Virus record (IMG/VR): IMGVR_UViG_3300023178_000139
Location: 1 to 35,845 of that record
Direction: 5' to 3' (one strand)
Source of the DNA: a virus
Length of the DNA: 35,845 nucleotides
Under the pieces are notes generated by a model. The model searched no databases, was not told where the DNA came from, and saw only the letters and a list, made by a program, of their open reading frames with translations. Made by a program: the position numbers and the translations under genes. This document shows positions 13,948-29,359 of this stretch, one piece after another. How positions within the stretch are numbered: the stretch's first letter is position 1; every line of letters starts with the position of its first letter.

Positions 13948-16146
13948 TTAGCGAATTTCGCAAGATCCTCCAGAGCAGGCCCACTCTTGCTCTGCTTTGA
14001 CATTATTTTCCTCTTCGATAACTTGAGTATAATCTACTTCTTTATATTCACGGTTCATATCTAGCCAGTTTTTCCAATTGTAAACATCTTTCATACAATA
14101 CGTGAGTAGTTTAAGGTCTCCGTTCATGTATCTATCGGCAAATTTTTGGCATCTATCTCTATATTCTTTTTTCTCTGAGCCTTTAATCTTTTGACCAACT
14201 CCTAATAGACTATCACAAGCCGCCCATAAATTATCTTCATAGAGAGAAAGACCAACTTCAATTAAACCGCTTACAAACACTGCCGCATCTCCGTAATGTT
14301 GTATCTGCTCACTAGGTAAATACACTGTTGTGAAGGGAGCTTGTGCATAATCTTTATCACCAGCGATTGGAAGCAGTGAAACACCGCAGAAATACTGGCG
14401 ATTATCATAAATAAAATCTGTCACAGCGTCCCACTCTTCTGGCTTAACGTTAATTGTATTGGAAACATTGTGCGTCAGCCACTTTTGTGTGCATTGTTCT
14501 GGATTTGTACCATTAATTACCCAGTTTTCCTGTGTGCTTTTTACGTATTCTAGTAAGTCTATCGCCCCTAGTTGATTTTTAATCTTAGAACCGTCTGGAA
14601 CTTCTACACAAAACGCCACAACGTCATCCGAGTCGTTATTAGACCATACGGACTCCTCACAAGCTCTAGGGTTGATTGTTTTGAAGTACTGGTATATTGG
14701 CTCCATTTTATTTGCTTGGACTCTACGGATGTATCTCTTGGCGTGATGGGGGTGAATTCCAGAAGAGGTTCCAAGGATACAGCTAGATGTACCTTCTGGC
14801 TTAACGCAGGTGGTACGTGCTGCTTTATTGATACCAATTAGCTTTGCGATTCTTTCATTAGTTTTCTTTACTATTTCTGCACCCTTCTTCTGAACTTTCG
14901 GGTCTAGGCATATTTCATGCTGTTCCATAATCCCCGTCATTGACACTCCCAACAGGGCTTCACGACTAATAATATTCTCAGAAGCTTTACCGAGGTAGGG
15001 GAATTCAGCAAATCCAGCTTGTAGCGTTCCGATAATTGCGGCAGACTCACACGCTGCATAAAAATCTTCTACAGTTTTAACTTTGGCACAGTTAATTGTA
15101 GACAGATTGCAGGCTTGCCATCCACTTTCGCCAGTTGTTTCATCTACGGGCCACATGCCAATTTCCACACATGGATTTACAATCAGCTCTGTAGAGTCAG
15201 ACCATACGAATCCGGGTTCTCCAAATTCTTTCACGGATTGCATAAGTTCATTGAATTGTTTTTTTGATGTTTTATTTCTTAGTAATAGTGCTGAGTTGTT
15301 TGATCGTCCTCTTTGTGGATTATCAATAAACCATGAGCCAGTTTTAGCCTTTGCCATTTCTTCATCGTCAGCAGAGAAAAGACAAATTGTAGCACTACGC
15401 CTAACGCCACCACTAATTACGGCGTCAGCACCAAACATAACAATGTCATATGCTTCGATTGGTTTAATTTTATCGCGGCCCTCTTTAATGATATTGTCTA
15501 GGACTTTCTTGATGCTTGTTAGTGCTTTCTTTAGAGGTTCTGGACCGGGAGCTTTGCCGCCGCTAGATTTTAAATATGATCCAGCCGGTCTAATTTTCGT
15601 GTAATCAAAAGATACATTCTTTCCGTTATATTCTGGAAAAAGATCGCACTTTCTAAAATAGCTTGACACCAATACGCCCACAGCGTCAGACCAACCCTCA
15701 ATAGAATCTTCAATGACAAATTTCTTTTGTCCTTCTTTTGATTTAACTATCTTTGGCAGCTTATCAATATGATGTTTCTGAACAGAAAAGCCAGTACCAC
15801 ATCCACACAATAATAAATACATGCACTCTTGGAAGAAACGTACCCTGTCTGTATAAGACGCAATGCAATTATAGATTCTGGCGTTGTGCTTGAAAACTGG
15901 AGCGCCGCCAAACTGCAAAGCCCGTTGAGAACCAAGAATCTTTTTCTTTCTCATGTCCTCATATGCTTGAGTTATTGCTTCCTTAACGTCCAAAACATTA
16001 TCATCATTAGGATCTACGTATTTGTCAAGCATCATTTGCTTAACTCTGTCAACTGATTCCTGCCAAGTTTCTCTTCTCTTCTTTTCTGGACACCATCTTG
16101 CATATTTAGATACGAACGTATAGTTCATCAATGACTTTATTGACAT
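13948..16146 (-). CDS. nrdJ: adenosylcobalamin-dependent (class II) ribonucleotide reductase
   Basis: At 732 residues the protein is close to the monomeric B12-dependent ribonucleoside triphosphate reductase in length. It shows the paired redox cysteines: C94 in IYNC, the radical-site N324-P-C326-V-E328, C346 in WQACNLST, and the C-terminal shuttle CSGGSC (C724, C729). Other family blocks are GCGTGFSVQ and GGVRRSATICLF. The enzyme makes deoxynucleotides without oxygen or a second subunit but needs host cobalamin. No class I R2 gene is seen, and no intein or intron interrupts it. A GGTGA-like ribosome site precedes the ATG. Confidence 0.95.
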   Translation of the reverse strand: MSIKSLMNYTFVSKYARWCPEKKRRETWQESVDRVKQMMLDKYVDPNDDNVLDVKEAITQAYEDMRKKKILGSQRALQFGGAPVFKHNARIYNCIASYTDRVRFFQECMYLLLCGCGTGFSVQKHHIDKLPKIVKSKEGQKKFVIEDSIEGWSDAVGVLVSSYFRKCDLFPEYNGKNVSFDYTKIRPAGSYLKSSGGKAPGPEPLKKALTSIKKVLDNIIKEGRDKIKPIEAYDIVMFGADAVISGGVRRSATICLFSADDEEMAKAKTGSWFIDNPQRGRSNNSALLLRNKTSKKQFNELMQSVKEFGEPGFVWSDSTELIVNPCVEIGMWPVDETTGESGWQACNLSTINCAKVKTVEDFYAACESAAIIGTLQAGFAEFPYLGKASENIISREALLGVSMTGIMEQHEICLDPKVQKKGAEIVKKTNERIAKLIGINKAARTTCVKPEGTSSCILGTSSGIHPHHAKRYIRRVQANKMEPIYQYFKTINPRACEESVWSNNDSDDVVAFCVEVPDGSKIKNQLGAIDLLEYVKSTQENWVINGTNPEQCTQKWLTHNVSNTINVKPEEWDAVTDFIYDNRQYFCGVSLLPIAGDKDYAQAPFTTVYLPSEQIQHYGDAAVFVSGLIEVGLSLYEDNLWAACDSLLGVGQKIKGSEKKEYRDRCQKFADRYMNGDLKLLTYCMKDVYNWKNWLDMNREYKEVDYTQVIEEENNVKAEQEWACSGGSCEIR

Positions 16147-16178: not shown

Positions 16179-16811
16179 TTAGAAATATTTTTCAAGCAAT
16201 CTCACAATAATAAATCTAGCAACTGCTGGTATTATAATGAATACCAAGAGATATGTCAATATTACGGACCCATATTTTTTTTCTTTCGCGTTTTCCCTTA
16301 CGTTTTCTACAACAAAATTATAGCACTGGCGTTTCAATTCTTTTCTTTTTGATGGTCCAGCCTCGCAAAATCCACCAGACTGACTAACTATTGTAGCCCA
16401 TTCTGTGGCGTATTGCAAGCAGTCTTTAGCGATTTTTCTTTTTGTATCATCGGAATATTTTTCTTTTATTTCTTCTTCTATTTGACACTGGTGGCCAGCA
16501 TACGTTAAGTGATCTAGAAAATCAAGTATACTTGATTTATCATAACCAAAACTAATGTCTGGGAAGTTCTTAAGCCTAACAGTTCCACCATCTTTTCTGA
16601 AAACTAATTGTTCAATATATGCGTACAAAGTTATTAGGCGGGTAATTTCTGCTTTGGGATAATTAGTTCCAAAACTTATAGTTGATCTTTCGCCATCATT
16701 ATAGACGTTTGCAACAAGGGGGCTTTCTGATTTAATCTTAAATCCATTTACACTAAATCCCTCGTCACTAAAAATTTTAAATAGAACTTCGCTTATTTCT
16801 TTTGGAGACAT
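16179..16811 (-). CDS. tail-anchored membrane protein of unknown function
   Basis: I do not recognise this 210-residue protein. Its first 180 residues look soluble and mixed alpha/beta. The C-terminus carries one strong membrane helix (YGSVILTYLLVFIIIPAVAR, about 179-198) and a basic end, so it should be anchored with most of the chain in the cytoplasm. Three further membrane or exported proteins lie directly upstream with gaps of 0-3 bases, which suggests a common membrane or envelope role. Confidence 0.78.
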   Translation of the reverse strand: MSPKEISEVLFKIFSDEGFSVNGFKIKSESPLVANVYNDGERSTISFGTNYPKAEITRLITLYAYIEQLVFRKDGGTVRLKNFPDISFGYDKSSILDFLDHLTYAGHQCQIEEEIKEKYSDDTKRKIAKDCLQYATEWATIVSQSGGFCEAGPSKRKELKRQCYNFVVENVRENAKEKKYGSVILTYLLVFIIIPAVARFIIVRLLEKYF

Positions 16812-16814
16812 GGC

Positions 16815-17282
16815 TTACCCCTTTTGAATTAATACCCACGCTATTCCCATAAAATACTCATGAAGAGATTGTTTTTCTTCTGCGGTTACTAGGTGATCAT
16901 CATTTGTTAGAATTTTTTCCAGAATTCTTTTTAGGTTTTCAGATAGTCCCTCGTATTTGTCTACGAGTTTTTTCTTGAAAAAAATTTTTCCAGCAAAAGC
17001 ATAAACGTCGTTTACCTGCTGCACAGATGTTTCATAACCAGAAACTCTTTCAGCAAATTCATAATTAAAAATAGCCAACTTAGCCCTATCGGAAGGCTCA
17101 GATACTATGTCTGAAAAAACACTGATATCTTTTAAGATTTTTTCTGTTGGTTTTTCTACATTCAGTATTTCTGCCGCAGGGTTAGGCTCTGGCTTGGGTT
17201 CTGGTTTATCAAAACCGTCTAGTAAACCTTGACCAAACACAGAATAAAGCAACAAAACAACTGCTATTATTCTTTTGTACAT
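16815..17282 (-). CDS. exported protein with signal peptide
   Basis: The 155-residue protein begins with a classical Sec signal (MYKRIIAVVLLLYSVFGQG) and no lipobox cysteine. A Pro/Glu-rich linker (EPKPEPNP) follows, then a helical domain ending YFMGIAWVLIQKG. Its family is unknown to me. It may act in the periplasm or as a virion part. It lies 1 base from the upstream small membrane gene and 3 bases from the tail-anchored gene, in the same operon. Confidence 0.78.
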   Translation of the reverse strand: MYKRIIAVVLLLYSVFGQGLLDGFDKPEPKPEPNPAAEILNVEKPTEKILKDISVFSDIVSEPSDRAKLAIFNYEFAERVSGYETSVQQVNDVYAFAGKIFFKKKLVDKYEGLSENLKRILEKILTNDDHLVTAEEKQSLHEYFMGIAWVLIQKG

Positions 17283-17283
17283 A

Positions 17284-17550
17284 TTAGTCCTCCGAATTTA
17301 AAAGAGGAAATACCTCATCTAATTTTTCAGCAGCTTCATGTAGCCCTAATTCAACGCACTGTTCTTTGACTGTGTGCCAAGAGCTAACAACGTCTAAGAA
17401 ATTTACGCCTGAATTAGATGGGATTACTACATTCTTTTTCTTGAATAAACTTTTGGCCCAATTAAGCATGGGTTGATAATTTGCTCCTGATAGTAATAAA
17501 AAGGAAGCGACTAAAATTGCCGCAATTCTAAACATCATTTCTGGTTCCAT
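17284..17550 (-). CDS. small membrane protein with helical C-terminal domain
   Basis: The 88-residue protein has one N-terminal membrane helix (about 7-24, FRIAAILVASFLLLSGA). A basic stretch follows (FKKKNVV), then an amphipathic domain with SWHTVKEQCVELGL and KLDEVFPLLN. I recall this last pattern in other phage and bacterial small proteins but cannot name a function. A lysis accessory is possible and not shown. Confidence 0.75.
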   Translation of the reverse strand: MEPEMMFRIAAILVASFLLLSGANYQPMLNWAKSLFKKKNVVIPSNSGVNFLDVVSSWHTVKEQCVELGLHEAAEKLDEVFPLLNSED

Positions 17551-17955
17551 TTATTCCTCCAATGTCTGTAATGGTTTAATAATAACGTCTTTGCCAAATT
17601 TAGATCCGTGGTATGGACAAACTGTTTTATGTCCATCTCCTTGTACAATTACTCCGCTACCTTTACAGATACATTTTTTAGGGTCTTCATGAGGCCCAAT
17701 AATGTCTGGAGTAGGAGTTACATTGAAAACTATTGTCTCGGCTTCGTCAAATGACTTTGAAATATCTTTTTTCCATTCATTAACGTAACCCTCATACATC
17801 TTGGCTATTTCACTGGTGTTGCAACTATAACCATTATTAAACCCGCTAGACCAAGGACTTCCCCCGTCTATTACTTTGGGAATGCTTGGGGCTAGCGAGA
17901 GGGTCAGTATGACTGAAACTAAAGATACTATAACATAATCAAGAAATTTTTTCAT
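17551..17955 (-). CDS. membrane-anchored protein with DnaJ-like zinc half-motif
   Basis: The 134-residue protein begins with an uncleaved signal or membrane helix (about 4-26, DYVIVSLVSVILTLSLAP). An extended region follows, then a CICKGSG...CPYHG block (about 94-116) that looks like one half of the DnaJ cysteine-rich zinc centre (CxCxGxG then CPxH). A metal site outside the membrane would be unusual; the fold may be stabilised by zinc. The start overlaps the upstream stop by 4 bases. The role is unknown, and a structural or chaperone-like part in the envelope is a guess. Confidence 0.78.
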   Translation of the reverse strand: MKKFLDYVIVSLVSVILTLSLAPSIPKVIDGGSPWSSGFNNGYSCNTSEIAKMYEGYVNEWKKDISKSFDEAETIVFNVTPTPDIIGPHEDPKKCICKGSGVIVQGDGHKTVCPYHGSKFGKDVIIKPLQTLEE

Positions 17956-21429: not shown

Positions 21430-22488
21430 TTATGGAACGAAATATATTGTGTTTGGATCTGTTATGTTGTTTTGTTGTAAGTGATTATATGTACCGCTAC
21501 TTACAATTACAGCATTATATACACCACTCACAACTGCTGACCCATAAGCATTAGTTATTGGCTTAGTATTAGAGCTAATTCCGTGTTTAACCACAAGCCA
21601 TTCTTCGTCTATGTTGTCATATATGAAGTCTGCTTTTTCTTTTGGGTAAAGTATACTTCCAACCCCTTCAGAAAATCTAAGTTTATTTCCAGCCGAACTT
21701 CCAACAGCTTGAGGAGTTAAAGTAATATTATAGCTTGACGAGTCATTTAAAATAGTGAATCTTTTGTGTTTGTAGTTTTTATCTATACCAGTTATATTAG
21801 TTCCTGTCGTTGGGGTAACTTTAACAAAATTAGCAGAAGATCCACCTACATTCCAGTTACTCAGCGGGGTAGAACTAACTGTAACTTCGTCAACGGAATA
21901 ATCGTCTTCTTCTATGGAGGGTCTTACAAATAATTCTCCATTAGTACCAGCATCTAAAACAAAAGCTACAGAAATTGCTCCCTGTGTTGGTTTTGTGGTA
22001 GTAAGAGTGCCTGCAACCGTTGGGCTTGCGTATAAAATATCTCCCTGCTGAAAATCAGATCCAGTTGCGTTAATGTTTACCCCATTAGAAGTGGTGTTCA
22101 CATGTGTAACATGTCCGAAGTGTACAATTTCTCCATCGCTACCGTGAGCAATATCTTCTTTTGCTAAACCTAAAAATCTTATTGATTCGATTGTACCATC
22201 AGCTATATATCTATCAATAGTAATAATTTTTCCACCAGCGGTTACACCGTTAGTGTATGTTGCTTGACCTTTATAAATTGTATTTCCGGTATTGTTGTGA
22301 ACGTAATAAACAGAGGCTTCGCTGGGTGGTGATGAGATATCCTCAAAAGATTGTTGTCCGTCACCGACTTTTAAAAGTTTTAAGTCTGTAGCGAAAACTG
22401 GCTCTCCAGAACTCGGAACATAACTAGCCAACTCGGCGGCAGTTCCTCTTTTGAACTGTATTGTTGTTGTGTTTTTGTTTTCTGCCAT
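21430..22488 (-). CDS. tail-fibre protein with Mtd-N-like head module (copy 2)
   Basis: The 352-residue protein opens with the same module as its neighbours (TIQFKRGTAAEL, SGEPVFATDLKLLKVGDG, about residues 9-46). It continues with a beta-rich segment (VYYVHNNTGNTIYKGQATY, IESIRFLGLAKEDIAHGSDG) that resembles fibre domains built of short repeated strands. It ends YNHLQQNNITDPNTIYFVP, close to the ending of copy 1. The start shares a base with the stop of the large RCC1 protein (TAATG). A side-fibre role is likely. Confidence 0.84.
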   Translation of the reverse strand: MAENKNTTTIQFKRGTAAELASYVPSSGEPVFATDLKLLKVGDGQQSFEDISSPPSEASVYYVHNNTGNTIYKGQATYTNGVTAGGKIITIDRYIADGTIESIRFLGLAKEDIAHGSDGEIVHFGHVTHVNTTSNGVNINATGSDFQQGDILYASPTVAGTLTTTKPTQGAISVAFVLDAGTNGELFVRPSIEEDDYSVDEVTVSSTPLSNWNVGGSSANFVKVTPTTGTNITGIDKNYKHKRFTILNDSSSYNITLTPQAVGSSAGNKLRFSEGVGSILYPKEKADFIYDNIDEEWLVVKHGISSNTKPITNAYGSAVVSGVYNAVIVSSGTYNHLQQNNITDPNTIYFVP

Positions 22489-25400
22489 TATGATAATCCT
22501 ATACCGAAAGGTTTGGTTGTTGGTGTGAAATTATTGTCATACCTTATTCCGCTTGAGAGCCGTAATTCGTCAATTTCAAAGTCGTGGAAATATTGGCCAG
22601 ATCCTAATAGCACAGAATCTATTACATAACTAGAACTATCTCTTCCGCTTGCGACAACGTTTCCATCTATGTAAAGTTGTAGCAATTCCACGCTCGATGG
22701 ATTGTCTGGAATTCCGCTTGTTCTTGTTAGTGCTATGTGGTCAAAACCATTGAAGTTGTAATCTTGAATATTTATTAAATTTGTTCCGTCAGTTTTAAAT
22801 ATCTTAAGATCATATCCAGTTGTATCGTTACCGTAATACATAATATTAAGATATTGATTACTGTTGCTGTCATTTAGCGTAATGATTGGGTTTCCAGAAG
22901 GATTAGCATTGATGTCTTCAGATCTATTTCTTGGATTAAAGAAAAATTCAATTGTATACTCTCCATCGAGATTGAAACTAGTATCATATCTCATTGAGTC
23001 GTAACGATATAATCTTAAGCATTCTGAGAATGCTCCGTCTAGATATCTTGTTCCTTCACTGTCGATATTAGTCAAGAAACTTGTGTCATAAGGATAACTG
23101 TTATTCGATAAATCATCTAAACTATTGTCGAAGTGTGAATAAAGAATCACGCTATCAAATAATCCGTCCGTAGCTTCTTCTGGCGAAATAGGCTGAGAAG
23201 TTGATGTGTACTGTCCCTTGCCAACACGATTGACCCCAGCTATTCTCACTAAATAACTTTCTGAATTATTCAGCCCGTCTAAGATGAATGAAAGATTTGA
23301 TACTTGTGGTTGCTGATTATTAAAATTGTTTGACAAAGCATTGTTACTGTAAACGGACCAAGTTACTCCGTTATCAATAGAGTATTCAATGACGTAATGA
23401 GTAACTGCTTCCTGTAGAGCTGTTTCATGACTCCATGATACTAGTAATTGTCGATTACCAACAATATTACTGGTGTTTGCATTTTCAACATTTAAGTTTG
23501 TGGGAACATTGGGAAAATAACTTAATACTGTTGAGTAAGAATGATCTCCACCATTGAACGTGTTTTGCCATCGTATTGGAGACTGCATTTGTGAAGGAAG
23601 ATTTCTAGGAACTCTATCTCCTAATCCTAATTGTCCACGGTCGTTGTCTCCAAACGACCATATGTAATGTTGATTATCAACAAGTTGAGAATGGTTTGCA
23701 CCAGTAGATATTTTTTCAATATTACTTTCACTAAGTCTAAACGGAACTGATCTGTCCAAATTGTCACCAGTACCAAGCTGACCTTTATGGTTTCTACCAA
23801 AACTCAAAACTTGATCTGTATCCGTTTTAATTAAGCTATGGTTTGCTCCAGCTGATATATCTTCAATAACATAATTTGGTTTTTCGTAAAATAGAAGATT
23901 TTTTCCTCCCATGTATCCATGATTGTATGAATATATACTAACCTTGTCAAAATTTCCTAGAACGTCAATATAGACGTTTCCATAATAGAAATTATAAGTT
24001 CCATCGGCAGTTGTGTTAACTAAATTCAAGCATCCACCGTTGATATCTCCATTGTATTTAATAGTATTTGTTTTTCCTCTGTTTAAAATAGCGATTGGAT
24101 CTGATTGTGGGACATTGTAAATTATGTACTGTCCGCTAGATAGCACAAAGCGCTCCAGAGGATTATATTGCTTACCCTGAGTGTAGTCTAAAACGTACAC
24201 CTGTTTATGATTGTATTCTTGTACGTCTACGTATGAACCTGAAGGAAGATATGTAAAATTAACGTCTTGTATTTGTGAAAAATCAAAGTTTATTTTTGTT
24301 GGAATATCAGCGTGGTTGACACTGCCAATACCAAGCTGTCCATATTGATTATTCCCAAAAGCGTATATATCTCCATTACTATCAAGAGCCAACGAGTGAC
24401 TGTTGCCTGCTTTTACTTGAACCCAGTCATTTTTATCTGTAATTTTTTGTGGAACGTGAACATCTCTGTGATCGCCGTCGCCAAGTTGCCCAAAGCTATT
24501 ATTGCCCCAAGTGTATAACTCATTATTTTTTATACCTAAAGAGTGGTGATTACCAGCAGACACTTCTTGCCAGCCACCGTTTAAGCTTTTGTAATAAAGA
24601 ATATCTTGTCCGTTATTTAAATAAGAACCATTTAAAGATGTTAAGCTTGCCTTGTTATAATCTCCAGAAACATCGATAAGAAGGTAGTCTGAATAGTATC
24701 TTTGGTTATTTATAGTTTGTTCTAATACGCCGCCAGAATATGCAATAATGTCAGCGGTGGAATTATGAACTAAAGAAATTGCGTTACTAGGAGATATACC
24801 GCTAACAATGTATTTTCCGTTATTGGCTATAAAATTAGCGTTGATATTAATATCATTTAATGTGAACCTGTTATCTACAGAGTTAATTCCGTTCTCTGTT
24901 AGTCTATTTAGATCTACAAAGTAAACGTCTTTTCCAATAATTGTAAAAGCATCTCTAGCGTTTGTATCTTCAAGACCTAAAGCCCCATAAGATCCATCAC
25001 CACACGAAAATAAATTGCCGCTACTATCTATTGCTAAAGAGTGATGTGATCCAGCCGATATTCTTGACCAAGTTTGCTTAATCGGATAACCAGAACTAAA
25101 AACTTCACCGTTTTTAAAGTATGTGTTTTGTATTTCTGATAGATCTTTTATGTTTGTTCCAACACCATTAGATTCTATTCCTAACTGCCCGTAATAATTG
25201 TAACCGCAAGAATGTAAAATTTTATCATAATCTAAGGCTAGAGTATGATAATTTCCAAGCTCAAAGGTTGACCACTTTTTTCCATTATCAAATACTAGAG
25301 TTGGCTGTAGTTTATCTAAATTATCTGATAAGGACAATTGACCAAACTCGTTATATCCGTAAGAAAGAACATCATCAACAACGGGATCTGGGGTTGTTGT

Positions 25401-25886
25401 TGTAATAACTGTTTCTGAGAAAATGTTTACAAAATATATTACAACGCTTAGCTTTACATCACTTGTTGCTGGAGAATAATTGTTTATTTCATTCCCGTCA
25501 ATTGCTGAGTTATCAACATTAGTTAGAACTACAGAAACTTCATTATCGTTTGATACATAAGCATATCTGATAGTAACATAGTCTGGTAAAATAGAGTCTG
25601 GCACGACAAGTACGGCATAGGTATTTCTAGCATCTATATCTGCAACAGTAATTGCTACCGTTTCCGAAGTATTTGCTTGTATTGCTGGAATGTCTACAGA
25701 TACTGATTTTAAAACATTGTTATGAAATGAAGGCAATTCACTCCAAGGTTTTTTCCCGTCTCCTATTTTTAGCTGACCAACATCTACAGCAAAAGCCGGT
25801 TCACCTTCTTTTAATACTGGGTTGGACTGATGGAATGCAGATTGTTTGCCGCGCCTAAGCTGAATATGCTTATATTGTGAAGACAT
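22488..25886 (-). CDS. giant fibre protein: Mtd-N head, RCC1 propeller with inserts, Fn3 and LamG
   Basis: The 1132-residue protein starts with the shared head module (HIQLRRGKQSAF, EGEPAFAVDVGQLKIGDG). From about residue 175 to 785 at least six RCC1-type blades follow, with repeats such as SAGNHHSLGI, WGNNSFGQLG, AFGNNQYGQLG and SFGDNDRGQLG. Two related inserts interrupt the propeller (about 315-433 and 543-670). The second contains an NHGYMGG block typical of a cupredoxin-like fold. An Fn3 domain (about 790-905, LLVSWSHE) and a LamG/concanavalin domain (about 908-1132, YTIEFFFNP) end it. I use ATG 25886, coupled to the protease stop (TAATG) with GAGG upstream. It is probably a receptor-binding virion protein. 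Confidence 0.88.
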   Translation of the reverse strand: MSSQYKHIQLRRGKQSAFHQSNPVLKEGEPAFAVDVGQLKIGDGKKPWSELPSFHNNVLKSVSVDIPAIQANTSETVAITVADIDARNTYAVLVVPDSILPDYVTIRYAYVSNDNEVSVVLTNVDNSAIDGNEINNYSPATSDVKLSVVIYFVNIFSETVITTTTPDPVVDDVLSYGYNEFGQLSLSDNLDKLQPTLVFDNGKKWSTFELGNYHTLALDYDKILHSCGYNYYGQLGIESNGVGTNIKDLSEIQNTYFKNGEVFSSGYPIKQTWSRISAGSHHSLAIDSSGNLFSCGDGSYGALGLEDTNARDAFTIIGKDVYFVDLNRLTENGINSVDNRFTLNDININANFIANNGKYIVSGISPSNAISLVHNSTADIIAYSGGVLEQTINNQRYYSDYLLIDVSGDYNKASLTSLNGSYLNNGQDILYYKSLNGGWQEVSAGNHHSLGIKNNELYTWGNNSFGQLGDGDHRDVHVPQKITDKNDWVQVKAGNSHSLALDSNGDIYAFGNNQYGQLGIGSVNHADIPTKINFDFSQIQDVNFTYLPSGSYVDVQEYNHKQVYVLDYTQGKQYNPLERFVLSSGQYIIYNVPQSDPIAILNRGKTNTIKYNGDINGGCLNLVNTTADGTYNFYYGNVYIDVLGNFDKVSIYSYNHGYMGGKNLLFYEKPNYVIEDISAGANHSLIKTDTDQVLSFGRNHKGQLGTGDNLDRSVPFRLSESNIEKISTGANHSQLVDNQHYIWSFGDNDRGQLGLGDRVPRNLPSQMQSPIRWQNTFNGGDHSYSTVLSYFPNVPTNLNVENANTSNIVGNRQLLVSWSHETALQEAVTHYVIEYSIDNGVTWSVYSNNALSNNFNNQQPQVSNLSFILDGLNNSESYLVRIAGVNRVGKGQYTSTSQPISPEEATDGLFDSVILYSHFDNSLDDLSNNSYPYDTSFLTNIDSEGTRYLDGAFSECLRLYRYDSMRYDTSFNLDGEYTIEFFFNPRNRSEDINANPSGNPIITLNDSNSNQYLNIMYYGNDTTGYDLKIFKTDGTNLINIQDYNFNGFDHIALTRTSGIPDNPSSVELLQLYIDGNVVASGRDSSSYVIDSVLLGSGQYFHDFEIDELRLSSGIRYDNNFTPTTKPFGIGLS

Positions 25887-26806
25887 TAAAATACCTCGTC
25901 TATAGTCCATTTTACTTTTCGTGGAGGAAAGCCGTCAACATCGCTAAATGCCCACGCTCCATTTTGGTTTAACATACCGGCGGCATCTCTTTCCCTAATC
26001 CAGAAAGACCCTTCTGGCTGTCCAAAACGCTTTGGGCCACCATTAAATACTCCCCAGCTATTTTGTATTAAGAATAAAGTTTCGTTATATACTTCGTGGG
26101 AATCGTCCATCGCCGTCCATGCCATTGCGTGATTCCATGATCCAGATTTACGGGCTATACCATGTTTATCCCTGCGTGATGAAAATCCATAATTACTACA
26201 GACACTTAAAGCATACCCATTGGCAATGGCATCTCTAGCTTCTTCTACAGACTTAATCATACTAATGGTTTTAACTTGATGCCTTTTACCCTCTTTTACA
26301 ACTTCAGAAGGCACTCCTCTTCTTCCCCAACCAGCGCCAAGCATTCCGTCATATTTAGATAAATCTACAAAACCATAATCTTTTCTTACTAAAATTCCGC
26401 CATTTTGGTGGACGAATCTAGCAGCAACAGAGCATGACATACCTTGACCGCCATGACCTCTAGATCCATAAATAGCTTCTGTAGCACCTCTGGCAACAAA
26501 ATCTTCTCTATCCCCACCAATAATTTCATGGCTTCTGGTAACGTCTACGGCGTTGCGTGTAGAGTGACTGACACAATCCCCCGTAACCTGTCGTTCGTGA
26601 CCGCCAAACGTGGGATCATATTTCTGGACAGACTTATAGAGTAATGCCGTTTTACCTTTTCCGCTGCTGTATAAATCAGAAGCTGCCACACCAAACAAGG
26701 GGTGCGGCAGCTCACCAAGAAGTTTGTCCGTGTCTTCGGGGTCACACCATGAGCCTACAAAACCATCCTTGTAAGCATTAAGTAGATCTCTAGGTTTATT
26801 AAACAT
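25886..26806 (-). CDS. papain-fold cysteine peptidase
   Basis: The 306-residue protein has the papain (C1A-like) catalytic set: oxyanion Q73, nucleophile C78 in GDCVSHS, H226 in WNHAMAW and N249 in LIQNSWG. Size and order match the family; no signal peptide or propeptide is obvious. It may cut host envelope proteins during entry or lysis, or process virion proteins. Its neighbours favour an outward-facing role: the holin-like gene ends 4 bases before its start region and the large fibre follows with a TAATG overlap. The GGAG ribosome site is clear. Substrate unknown. Confidence 0.87.
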   Translation of the reverse strand: MFNKPRDLLNAYKDGFVGSWCDPEDTDKLLGELPHPLFGVAASDLYSSGKGKTALLYKSVQKYDPTFGGHERQVTGDCVSHSTRNAVDVTRSHEIIGGDREDFVARGATEAIYGSRGHGGQGMSCSVAARFVHQNGGILVRKDYGFVDLSKYDGMLGAGWGRRGVPSEVVKEGKRHQVKTISMIKSVEEARDAIANGYALSVCSNYGFSSRRDKHGIARKSGSWNHAMAWTAMDDSHEVYNETLFLIQNSWGVFNGGPKRFGQPEGSFWIRERDAAGMLNQNGAWAFSDVDGFPPRKVKWTIDEVF

Positions 26807-26810
26807 TTTT

Positions 26811-27035
26811 TTACTCCGGTACGTTATTTTTGGCCCACTTTACGATAGTATTAATAACAACTGCCGCGATTGGAACAAACATAACGCCCAGATTACCTAA
26901 ATCTAGGTCTGCTAAATTTTCGCCTAAATATGTTAAACCAGCAGCCAAAGCAACAAGTGCGGTGTTTTTACTGATTTCAAGAACGTCTGTAACATTCAAA
27001 CTAAAAGCCGGTGAATTATTGTCTGTATCAGCCAT
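26811..27035 (-). CDS. holin-like small membrane protein
   Basis: The 74-residue protein has two hydrophobic helices (about 23-38, NTALVALAAGLTYLG, and 50-66, VMFVPIAAVVINTIVKW). The loop between them is acidic (ENLADLDLGN) and the tail is short and basic (KWAKNN). That is the class II holin layout. The position before a peptidase gene supports a lysis role, but many small phage membrane proteins share this shape. AGAGG lies just before the ATG. If it is a holin it would set the time of membrane opening. Confidence 0.62.
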   Translation of the reverse strand: MADTDNNSPAFSLNVTDVLEISKNTALVALAAGLTYLGENLADLDLGNLGVMFVPIAAVVINTIVKWAKNNVPE

Positions 27036-27037
27036 TG

Positions 27038-27634
27038 TTATACCTCTTCTTGTAAACTGATTAAAAAGCCGCCATGCTCACTATCGGAAATCCTATACGG
27101 GTAGCCAATAAGCCTAACCGTTGTATTGTTTTGAAGTCTTGTGGTTTTGTTAAACCTTCTATTCATTTTTAAGCAAGAAAAGAATTCTGCTTGCACTTCT
27201 TCTCTTTCTTCTTCTGCGAAAAGATTAATCCAGTCAAAACCCTCTATACTACTTACTATGTCTTTGGTGTAATCTTGCATCATTGCGTTACACCAGACCA
27301 ATCTACCTTCTGCGTCTGTCTCAAACAAAGCAACGTTACTGTAATGTAAAGCGGCTTTTGTTCGTTGTATAATTACTTTTTGTCTTCCTTCTATTCTGCT
27401 ACAGGTGGCTCTCATGTCTATAATAGCATCTTTTATACTATTTCCACCATTTGTTTGTAATTCTTTTTCTATTAAAAGGCGTAGATCATCCACAGACTTG
27501 ATAAAAACATCGTGATTTTTAACGAGTTTTACAAGCGGTTTGACAAACCTCTTCCAGAGAAAAGTAAAGAATCCAATTACACTACCAATTGATCCAACGA
27601 TAATTGCTATTATTTCTGGATTGATTTCGGTCAC
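27038..27634 (-). CDS. membrane-anchored PAS-domain protein
   Basis: The 198-residue protein has one N-terminal membrane helix (about 6-26, IIAIIVGSIGSVIGFFTFLW) and a basic stop-transfer segment. A helical linker (about 45-90) follows, then a PAS domain with ALFETDAEGRLVWCN, DWINLFAEEER and GGFLISLQEEV. PAS folds sense redox, light, small ligands or mediate dimers. No kinase, cyclase or DNA-binding part is attached. I choose GTG 27634 (GGAG 8 bases upstream) over a GTG at 27673 that lies inside the hairpin. It precedes the holin-like gene by 2 bases, which hints at a role in lysis control (inference). Confidence 0.8.
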   Translation of the reverse strand: MTEINPEIIAIIVGSIGSVIGFFTFLWKRFVKPLVKLVKNHDVFIKSVDDLRLLIEKELQTNGGNSIKDAIIDMRATCSRIEGRQKVIIQRTKAALHYSNVALFETDAEGRLVWCNAMMQDYTKDIVSSIEGFDWINLFAEEEREEVQAEFFSCLKMNRRFNKTTRLQNNTTVRLIGYPYRISDSEHGGFLISLQEEV

Positions 27635-27664: not shown

Positions 27665-27691
27665 GGAAAGCACCCACTAGGAGTGCTTTCC
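27665..27691 (-). terminator. hairpin after the 27714-28379 gene, probable terminator
   Basis: A perfect 9-base inverted repeat (GGAAAGCAC / GTGCTTTCC) with a 9-base interval forms a stem that can extend to 11 pairs with one bulge. It starts 23 bases after the upstream stop. The following minus-strand sequence is pyrimidine-rich (ACTCTTTCTTTCT) but not a pure U-run, so termination may be partial. It would separate the upstream structural-type gene from the PAS/holin/protease set and lower their expression. Confidence 0.65.
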
Positions 27692-28449: not shown

Positions 28450-28929
28450 CTATTCAGATTCTTTTTTGATTTTGTGGTAGATTTTTTTTAGCTTTTTTCT
28501 GACTGTTTCACGGCTATAAGATCTACTTTCTGACATTTCCTGAATAGTTTTGTTCATATATTTATCTATAAGTAGCTGCTTATCCTCGTCGCTGTCTAGT
28601 ATGTCTACCAATTCTATTAGAATGTTGTCATTAGATTTTGAAGGTATATTTTCATGTAATATTTTTTTGACGAATTTACCCTTGTTTTCAAACTTGATAG
28701 ATTTCAAGCACTCAATCAAAACACCCTTGTACAAATATGTGGTAAACTTTGTGTTTTTTGACGGGTTGTAGTTAACCAAAGACTTCCACAGCGCGTTTAT
28801 TTTACATGTGTAGATTGTGTCTTGGTCCAATTGCCTCGAAAAGCTTTGACACGCCTTGTTCATTATTTTAACAACGTCTTGGTCTTTTAAAGCTTTTTCA
28901 ATTCTCTGATTTATGTTCATGGTTTTCAT
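28450..28929 (-). CDS. RNA polymerase sigma factor, gp55-like
   Basis: The 159-residue protein has a region-2 block (YNPSKNTKFTTYLYKGVLIE, about residues 54-73) that matches the FDPSKG..F.TYLY..I pattern of sigma-70 region 2. It also has a C-terminal HTH (LLIDKYMNKTIQEMSES, about 118-134, then YSRETVRKKLKKIYHKIK) like region 4. Length and layout resemble the late sigma factors of T4-type phages. It would direct host RNA polymerase to phage late promoters. A TTG at 28935 is an alternative start with tighter ribosome spacing. It sits just upstream of the virion and lysis genes, which would be its natural targets. Confidence 0.82.
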   Translation of the reverse strand: MKTMNINQRIEKALKDQDVVKIMNKACQSFSRQLDQDTIYTCKINALWKSLVNYNPSKNTKFTTYLYKGVLIECLKSIKFENKGKFVKKILHENIPSKSNDNILIELVDILDSDEDKQLLIDKYMNKTIQEMSESRSYSRETVRKKLKKIYHKIKKESE

Positions 28930-29359
28930 TTTCAAAATTCTCCTTTATCAAAGTGTTTTCTATCAATCTACGAACATTTTTAAACTCAAACATCCTTCCA
29001 ATTCCTATAAAAAATCTATATCTACTCATTATATTCATAAGCTCTACGCCTTGTATGGTATCAAGGCTATCTTTAATATCTTGAGTTATGTCAAAATTTG
29101 TATGACCAATCCAGCAATCAAAATTTTGTATAATGTTGGCTTCTTCTATTAATTTGCTAGTTATCGGTATCATGAATGCTTCTGAAGAAGAATCTTCTTC
29201 GTCTTTATCATCAACAATATCGCTGTCGTATTCTTCTACATCCTCAACGTGTAGCTTGTGTTTGCTTAATAGATTTAACAAGAAGTTAGACGACAACTGT
29301 TCTTCTAGTAACGTTTCGTACTTTTGCCAGCCTATTTTCTTCTTAAATTTTTGACTCAT
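28898..29359 (-). CDS. conserved phage hypothetical next to the sigma factor
   Basis: The 153-residue protein begins with a basic helix (MSQKFKKKIGWQKYETLLEE), followed by an acidic stretch (DSDIVDDKDEEDSSSE, about 45-60). It then has a block I recall in T4-like phages beside gp55-like genes: WIGHTNFDIT, GVELMNIMSRYRFFIGIGRMFE. The function is unknown to me. It overlaps the sigma gene start by 32 bases and the upstream gene by 17. Confidence 0.78.
   Translation of the reverse strand: MSQKFKKKIGWQKYETLLEEQLSSNFLLNLLSKHKLHVEDVEEYDSDIVDDKDEEDSSSEAFMIPITSKLIEEANIIQNFDCWIGHTNFDITQDIKDSLDTIQGVELMNIMSRYRFFIGIGRMFEFKNVRRLIENTLIKENFENENHEHKSEN

Follow-up and report, generated by a model that had tools for sequence, protein, structure and literature searches.

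A conserved PAS, holin-like and papain-fold peptidase cassette as a candidate lysis locus of uncultured tailed phages

Three adjacent viral genes, predicted to encode a membrane-anchored PAS protein, a holin-like membrane protein of 74 amino acids and a papain-fold peptidase, are best explained as the late lysis locus of an extensive uncultured group of tailed phages, probably with Planctomycetota-like hosts, in which the PAS protein would regulate the holin-like protein and the peptidase would attack the host envelope. We consider the chances of this reading to be evenly balanced. The cassette lies where the lysis genes are placed in many viruses, and this points to an unfamiliar means of breaking the host cell open. 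About a hundred environmental contigs contain it, while a search of 50,697 phage records gave no match to the PAS protein or to the peptidase; hence, the arrangement seems to be common yet overlooked. Literature searches for a PAS-holin-papain cassette found no description. The window analysed here is the complete IMG/VR record IMGVR_UViG_3300023178_000139, a linear fragment of 35,845 bases.

Organisation and conservation of the cassette

The original prediction of a tight three-gene cassette at 25886–27634, directly before the fibres, describes the window accurately. All three open reading frames are present on the minus strand, encoding a TM–coil–PAS protein of 198 amino acids that starts from GTG (27038–27634), the 74-residue protein (26811–27035) and a peptidase of 306 amino acids (25886–26806), with spacers of 2 and 4 bases between them. 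The peptidase gene abuts or overlaps the next minus-strand reading frame (22488–25910), a tail-fibre gene whose product has six RCC1 repeats and an Mtd_N domain; the probable fibre start, giving a gene at 22488–25886, overlaps the peptidase stop. In relatives the fibre is an optional neighbour. On the 5' side, folding predicts an intrinsic-terminator-like hairpin with a T-rich tail (27665–27691, minus strand) between the PAS gene and a preceding probable structural gene of 225 amino acids. An alternative GTG start for the PAS gene at 27673 would give 211 amino acids and falls inside this hairpin. A little further 5', a sigma-70-region-like protein (28450–28935) is kept in relatives and is a possible late-gene regulator.

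The original prediction depended on the same gene order recurring in related phages, and the co-occurrence of the three genes proved to be strong. Two sets of 80 IMG/VR viral loci were fetched independently, one seeded with the PAS family and the other with the 74-residue family, and the order PAS, membrane protein, peptidase (PAS-TM-PEP) was recovered in 66 of the former and 58 of the latter. One of these 58 (L201, 241–1838) has broken frames in the PAS and peptidase genes, reflecting either decay or assembly error. Substitution patterns indicate that all three genes evolve under purifying selection, dN/dS being about 0.05–0.28 (one PAS pair was saturated). Given the recurrent order and these low ratios, the cassette is not a chance arrangement. 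Most relatives also have a hairpin in the same place before the PAS gene, with unrelated stem sequences; over 67 loci the median folding z-score was -3.9, and 67% of loci fell below -3. The conserved hairpin marks the beginning of the PAS-TM-PEP unit.

The adjoining fibre raises two other roles for the peptidase. It could be a tail-associated virion enzyme that cuts host surface proteins during entry, its neighbours being linked to the fibre through co-expression only, and both the overlap with the fibre gene in the window and the long Mtd_N fibres directly 3' of the peptidase in several relatives are consistent with this. However, many relatives have small membrane proteins there instead of an adjacent fibre, the structural genes of relative G001 (136 kb) lie on the opposite strand in a distant module, and the constant partners of the peptidase are signal-anchored proteins, no fusion to a virion domain having been seen; we regard an entry role as improbable. 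Proteases serve in the assembly of many phages, and translational overlap with the fibre gene could equally reflect a protease that processes fibres or other virion proteins. This is very improbable, given that the structural module of G001 has a Clp-type protease of its own and that the peptidase is kept where no fibre is adjacent and missing in relatives that lack it but retain PAS-TM (PEP-less relatives). That separate Clp-type gene also led us to reject a prohead protease identity for the peptidase. Both roles are less well supported because the fibre is optional and the structural module of G001 lies elsewhere.

Comparison of gene content across relatives indicates that the cassette is composed of two parts, module A (PAS-TM) and module B (the peptidase with envelope-anchored partners), since each is found without the other. 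At 13 loci PAS-TM leads directly into ribonucleotide reductase and the peptidase is missing; nor was it found elsewhere in the records to which these loci belong, which extend to 105 kb. Conversely, in the long records of a diverged clade with peptidases 57–60% identical, nothing matched PAS; this clade has homologs of two signal-anchored proteins of the window, of 88 and 155 amino acids, directly 5' of the peptidase (hhalign, 99.9% and 100% respectively). In the window these belong to a minus-strand group comprising a protein of 134 amino acids with an N-terminal TM or signal segment and a Cys-rich, zinc-finger-like region (17551–17955), the 88-residue protein with its single TM helix (17284–17550), the helical 155-residue protein (16815–17282) and a protein of 210 amino acids with a C-terminal TM helix (16179–16811). 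The 155-residue family is present in 71 of 83 peptidase or PAS loci, and two relatives (G419 and G420) lack all four genes of 16179–17955 together with the peptidase. A third lineage, with a peptidase 41% identical, has PAS, TM, a 172-residue protein, peptidase and zinc-finger protein in a single row. The ribonucleotide reductase of the window (13948–16146) looks to be class II, and that of most of the PEP-less group looks to be class I (NrdA/NrdB; L166:4909–7146). Thioredoxin-like secreted proteins close the envelope cluster in two relatives (L019:9346–9795 and L020:6809–7201).

This separability suits a reading in which the genes serve during infection, whether to remodel the envelope, to exclude superinfecting phages or to take over the host; PAS and TM would pair up as a membrane sensor or signalling unit, and modification of the envelope by the peptidase and module B would not be the trigger of lysis. 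The several signal-anchored proteins of module B, and the secreted trypsin-like protease and thioredoxin of some relatives, point the same way. Against it, the cassette sits behind a terminator-like hairpin and beside late structural genes, and one of its proteins is homologous to proteins of actinophage lysis cassettes; we think this reading rather unlikely.

Predicted properties of the three proteins

The PAS protein comprises a long N-terminal membrane and coil helix, with an NGGxSxKDAI motif in the coil, and a C-terminal PAS domain. It had been described as a membrane PAS protein without an output domain, and the predicted fold and N-terminal TM helix bear this out; neither sequence nor AlphaFold and Foldseek analysis revealed an output domain among its 198 residues. 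Pfam matches to PAS were weak (E 0.004) and under the cut-off, the window protein scoring 17.8 against the curated 22.6 bits of PF00989, and about half of 27 family members matched at E <0.05. The PAS fold was nevertheless confidently predicted by AlphaFold (pLDDT 85), and Foldseek matched the model to RsLOV (E 8e-7) and to the PAS domains of Aer and NifL. All 79 aligned PAS sequences keep two Trp residues and the Cys154 of the long PAS helix. We rejected a LOV photoreceptor: the fold is close, yet the LOV cysteine motif was not seen when the alignment was inspected by eye. In two relatives a TM-coil protein of 103–109 amino acids without PAS occupies the PAS slot (L019:5660–5971 and L020:3014–3343).

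Homology of the N-terminal half of this protein to proteins of actinophage lysis cassettes is the best evidence for a lysis role. The TM-coil half matches phrog_9869 in 19 of 27 family members, alignment of the PAS family with four actinophage TM-coil proteins by hhalign gave 95.7% (E 9e-9), and a TM segment, a coil and an NGGS(L/I)(R/K)DA motif are common to the PAS family and PHROGs 9869 and 15431. In Thermobifida phage P1312 the TM-coil protein adjoins an amidase and also matches, at E 1e-10, a PHROG that bears the name holin; the gene order is endolysin, holin, gp37 in Streptomyces phage TurkishDelight and gp22, endolysin, holin in Arthrobacter phage Sonali, gp37 and gp22 being the TM-coil proteins. 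In the fourth actinophage the TM-coil protein lies 0.7 kb before a candidate M15-like protein. The neighbours of the TM-coil protein are endolysin or holin genes in three of four actinophages, and in the cassette they are the holin-like gene and the peptidase.

The second gene had been called a two-helix holin-like protein. Its product is indeed small and hydrophobic, with one TM helix above the hydropathy threshold and a probable second recognised by eye, two being the number in class II holins; similarity to holins did not emerge, database searches and profile comparisons of the 74-residue family with named or known holin families giving no match above noise. 'Holin-like' is accordingly used here as a tentative description of size, hydrophobicity and position alone. 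In one relative (L174) the TM slot is taken by a different gene of 60 amino acids, whose resemblance to a holin family is only weak (E 0.08).

The papain fold predicted for the third protein was upheld by its AlphaFold model, its match to xylellain and its invariant catalytic residues. From 47 aligned sequences AlphaFold produced a papain fold (pLDDT 83), for which the top solved neighbour in Foldseek was xylellain (3ois, E 1e-10), followed by cathepsins. Gln73, Cys78, His226 and Asn249, in the order Q-C-H-N, are invariant in 47 of 47 aligned peptidases and retained in the lineage that is 41% identical. The sequence falls below the curated cut-off for Pfam C1 (PF00112; 17.5 against 20.7 bits), and a sequence-profile search of the PDB gave no match; the peptidase is assigned to C1A by modelled fold and active site, not by curated Pfam score. 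No signal peptide was seen by eye. In one relative (L034:6780–8702, a reading frame of 640 amino acids) an intein sits exactly at the catalytic Cys. Among viral proteins, structure matches included C1A-fold phage proteins named, in annotation only, peptidoglycan-binding or N-acetylmuramidase, and these names for wall functions suggest that papain folds may serve as wall-directed phage enzymes.

Taken with the actinophage homology, these named proteins support the lysis function proposed in the original prediction; the three genes do not, however, form an indivisible device.

Peptidoglycan hydrolases and probable hosts

No peptidoglycan hydrolase had been seen near the cassette, an absence that was borne out and now extends to relatives. 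PF01510, PF01520, PF00959, PF08291 and PF05257 were found in 0 of 26 related records, which reach 223 kb and may be incomplete, and M23 gave a single sub-threshold match (17.6 bits) in the same 26. When 56 unassigned proteins of G001, and also its giant tail protein, were compared with all of Pfam, again no peptidoglycan hydrolase was recovered; the proteases found in that genome were the Clp-type enzyme of the structural module and a secreted trypsin-type enzyme (L099:14918–15721). The searched relatives thus hold no peptidoglycan-hydrolase lysis set, and the complete endolysin, holin and spanin set elsewhere that would have told against the original prediction did not appear. A motif scan of PEP-less relatives, which keep PAS-TM, found no recognisable peptidoglycan hydrolase either, which argues that the peptidase is not simply a substitute for one; as the records are perhaps incomplete too, an unrecognised lysis enzyme is possible.

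Hosts are probably Planctomycetota-like, judging from planctomycete-type genes carried by relatives. DUF1501 occurs in 9 of 27 related records, and G001 has a PSCyt2-DUF1501 pair (L099:964–4567), families that we take to be typical of planctomycetes and related phyla. Planctomycete-type genes of these families were also observed in L093 and at G015:C7:55841–60322, and one of the phages has three DUF1501 genes in tandem. G001 further encodes a tmRNA (L099:4570–4908; predicted tag ADTSVLALAA), which indicates a bacterial host. A first hint of a host without peptidoglycan came from a contig of a SAR202 (Chloroflexota) MAG, SAR202 being reported to lack peptidoglycan (PMC11994032, PMC10444878). 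We rejected SAR202 as the main reading, the peptidase having been found in just 1 of 393 Dehalococcoidia genomes and relatives bearing PSCyt2 and DUF1501; PSCyt2 was found in 0 of 148 Dehalococcoidia, in a search that had no positive-control match. Matches in Lokiarchaeota and Flavobacteriales MAGs were taken to be misbinned phage contigs. Planctomycetes possess peptidoglycan (PMC4432640), and a peptidoglycan-cutting enzyme is therefore still expected in their phages, unless the peptidase or an unrecognised protein serves. The peptidase would presumably act on envelope proteins or wall peptides. Literature searches on planctomycete phages found no paper.

Proposed mechanism and comparison with known systems

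Under the lysis reading, the 74-residue protein would be the holin and the TM–coil–PAS protein its membrane partner or regulator, the cytoplasmic PAS domain setting the moment at which the holin fires. The peptidase, having no signal of its own, would escape by way of the lesion made by the holin and then cleave either envelope proteins or wall peptide bonds, in the role usually played by a peptidoglycan-cleaving endolysin, and the signal-anchored proteins of module B would act together with it. We infer that the small protein acts as a holin, that PAS gates it and that the peptidase is proteolytic, and likewise infer its target, the host and the timing. The more specific proposal, that a PAS domain joined to a membrane protein of the lysis cassette times the holin in response to a cytoplasmic signal, redox or ligand, and that the Planctomycetota-like envelope is broken by a papain protease in place of any peptidoglycan hydrolase, is a tentative one that we suspect will not hold in full. 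Phage lysis timing is usually ascribed to holin accumulation and membrane potential. If a PAS sensor does sit on a membrane protein of a lysis cassette, control of lysis by cell state becomes directly testable, and lysis in which a protease stands in for the peptidoglycan hydrolase would be chemically unusual.

With single-domain PAS and LOV sensors such as RsLOV and the PAS domains of Aer and NifL, the cassette protein shares the PAS fold; it differs in its predicted N-terminal membrane anchor, in having no output domain and in its invariant Cys. The peptidase shares fold and Gln-Cys-His-Asn site with xylellain, cathepsins and C1A proteins of uncultured Caudovirales, but is only about 15% identical to known C1A peptidases and is tied to a membrane-protein cassette. 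Canonical holin-endolysin-spanin systems are likewise compact cassettes with a small membrane protein and a signal-less enzyme, although in the relatives studied here neither a peptidoglycan hydrolase nor recognised spanins were detected. In the lysis cassettes of P1312, TurkishDelight and Sonali, a homologous TM-coil protein stands beside the enzyme, accompanied in two of them by a small holin. Compared with the actinophage 'NGGSLRDAV' TM-coil protein, the version described here carries an additional PAS domain, and where the actinophages have an endolysin that cuts peptidoglycan, the cassette has a peptidase of papain fold.
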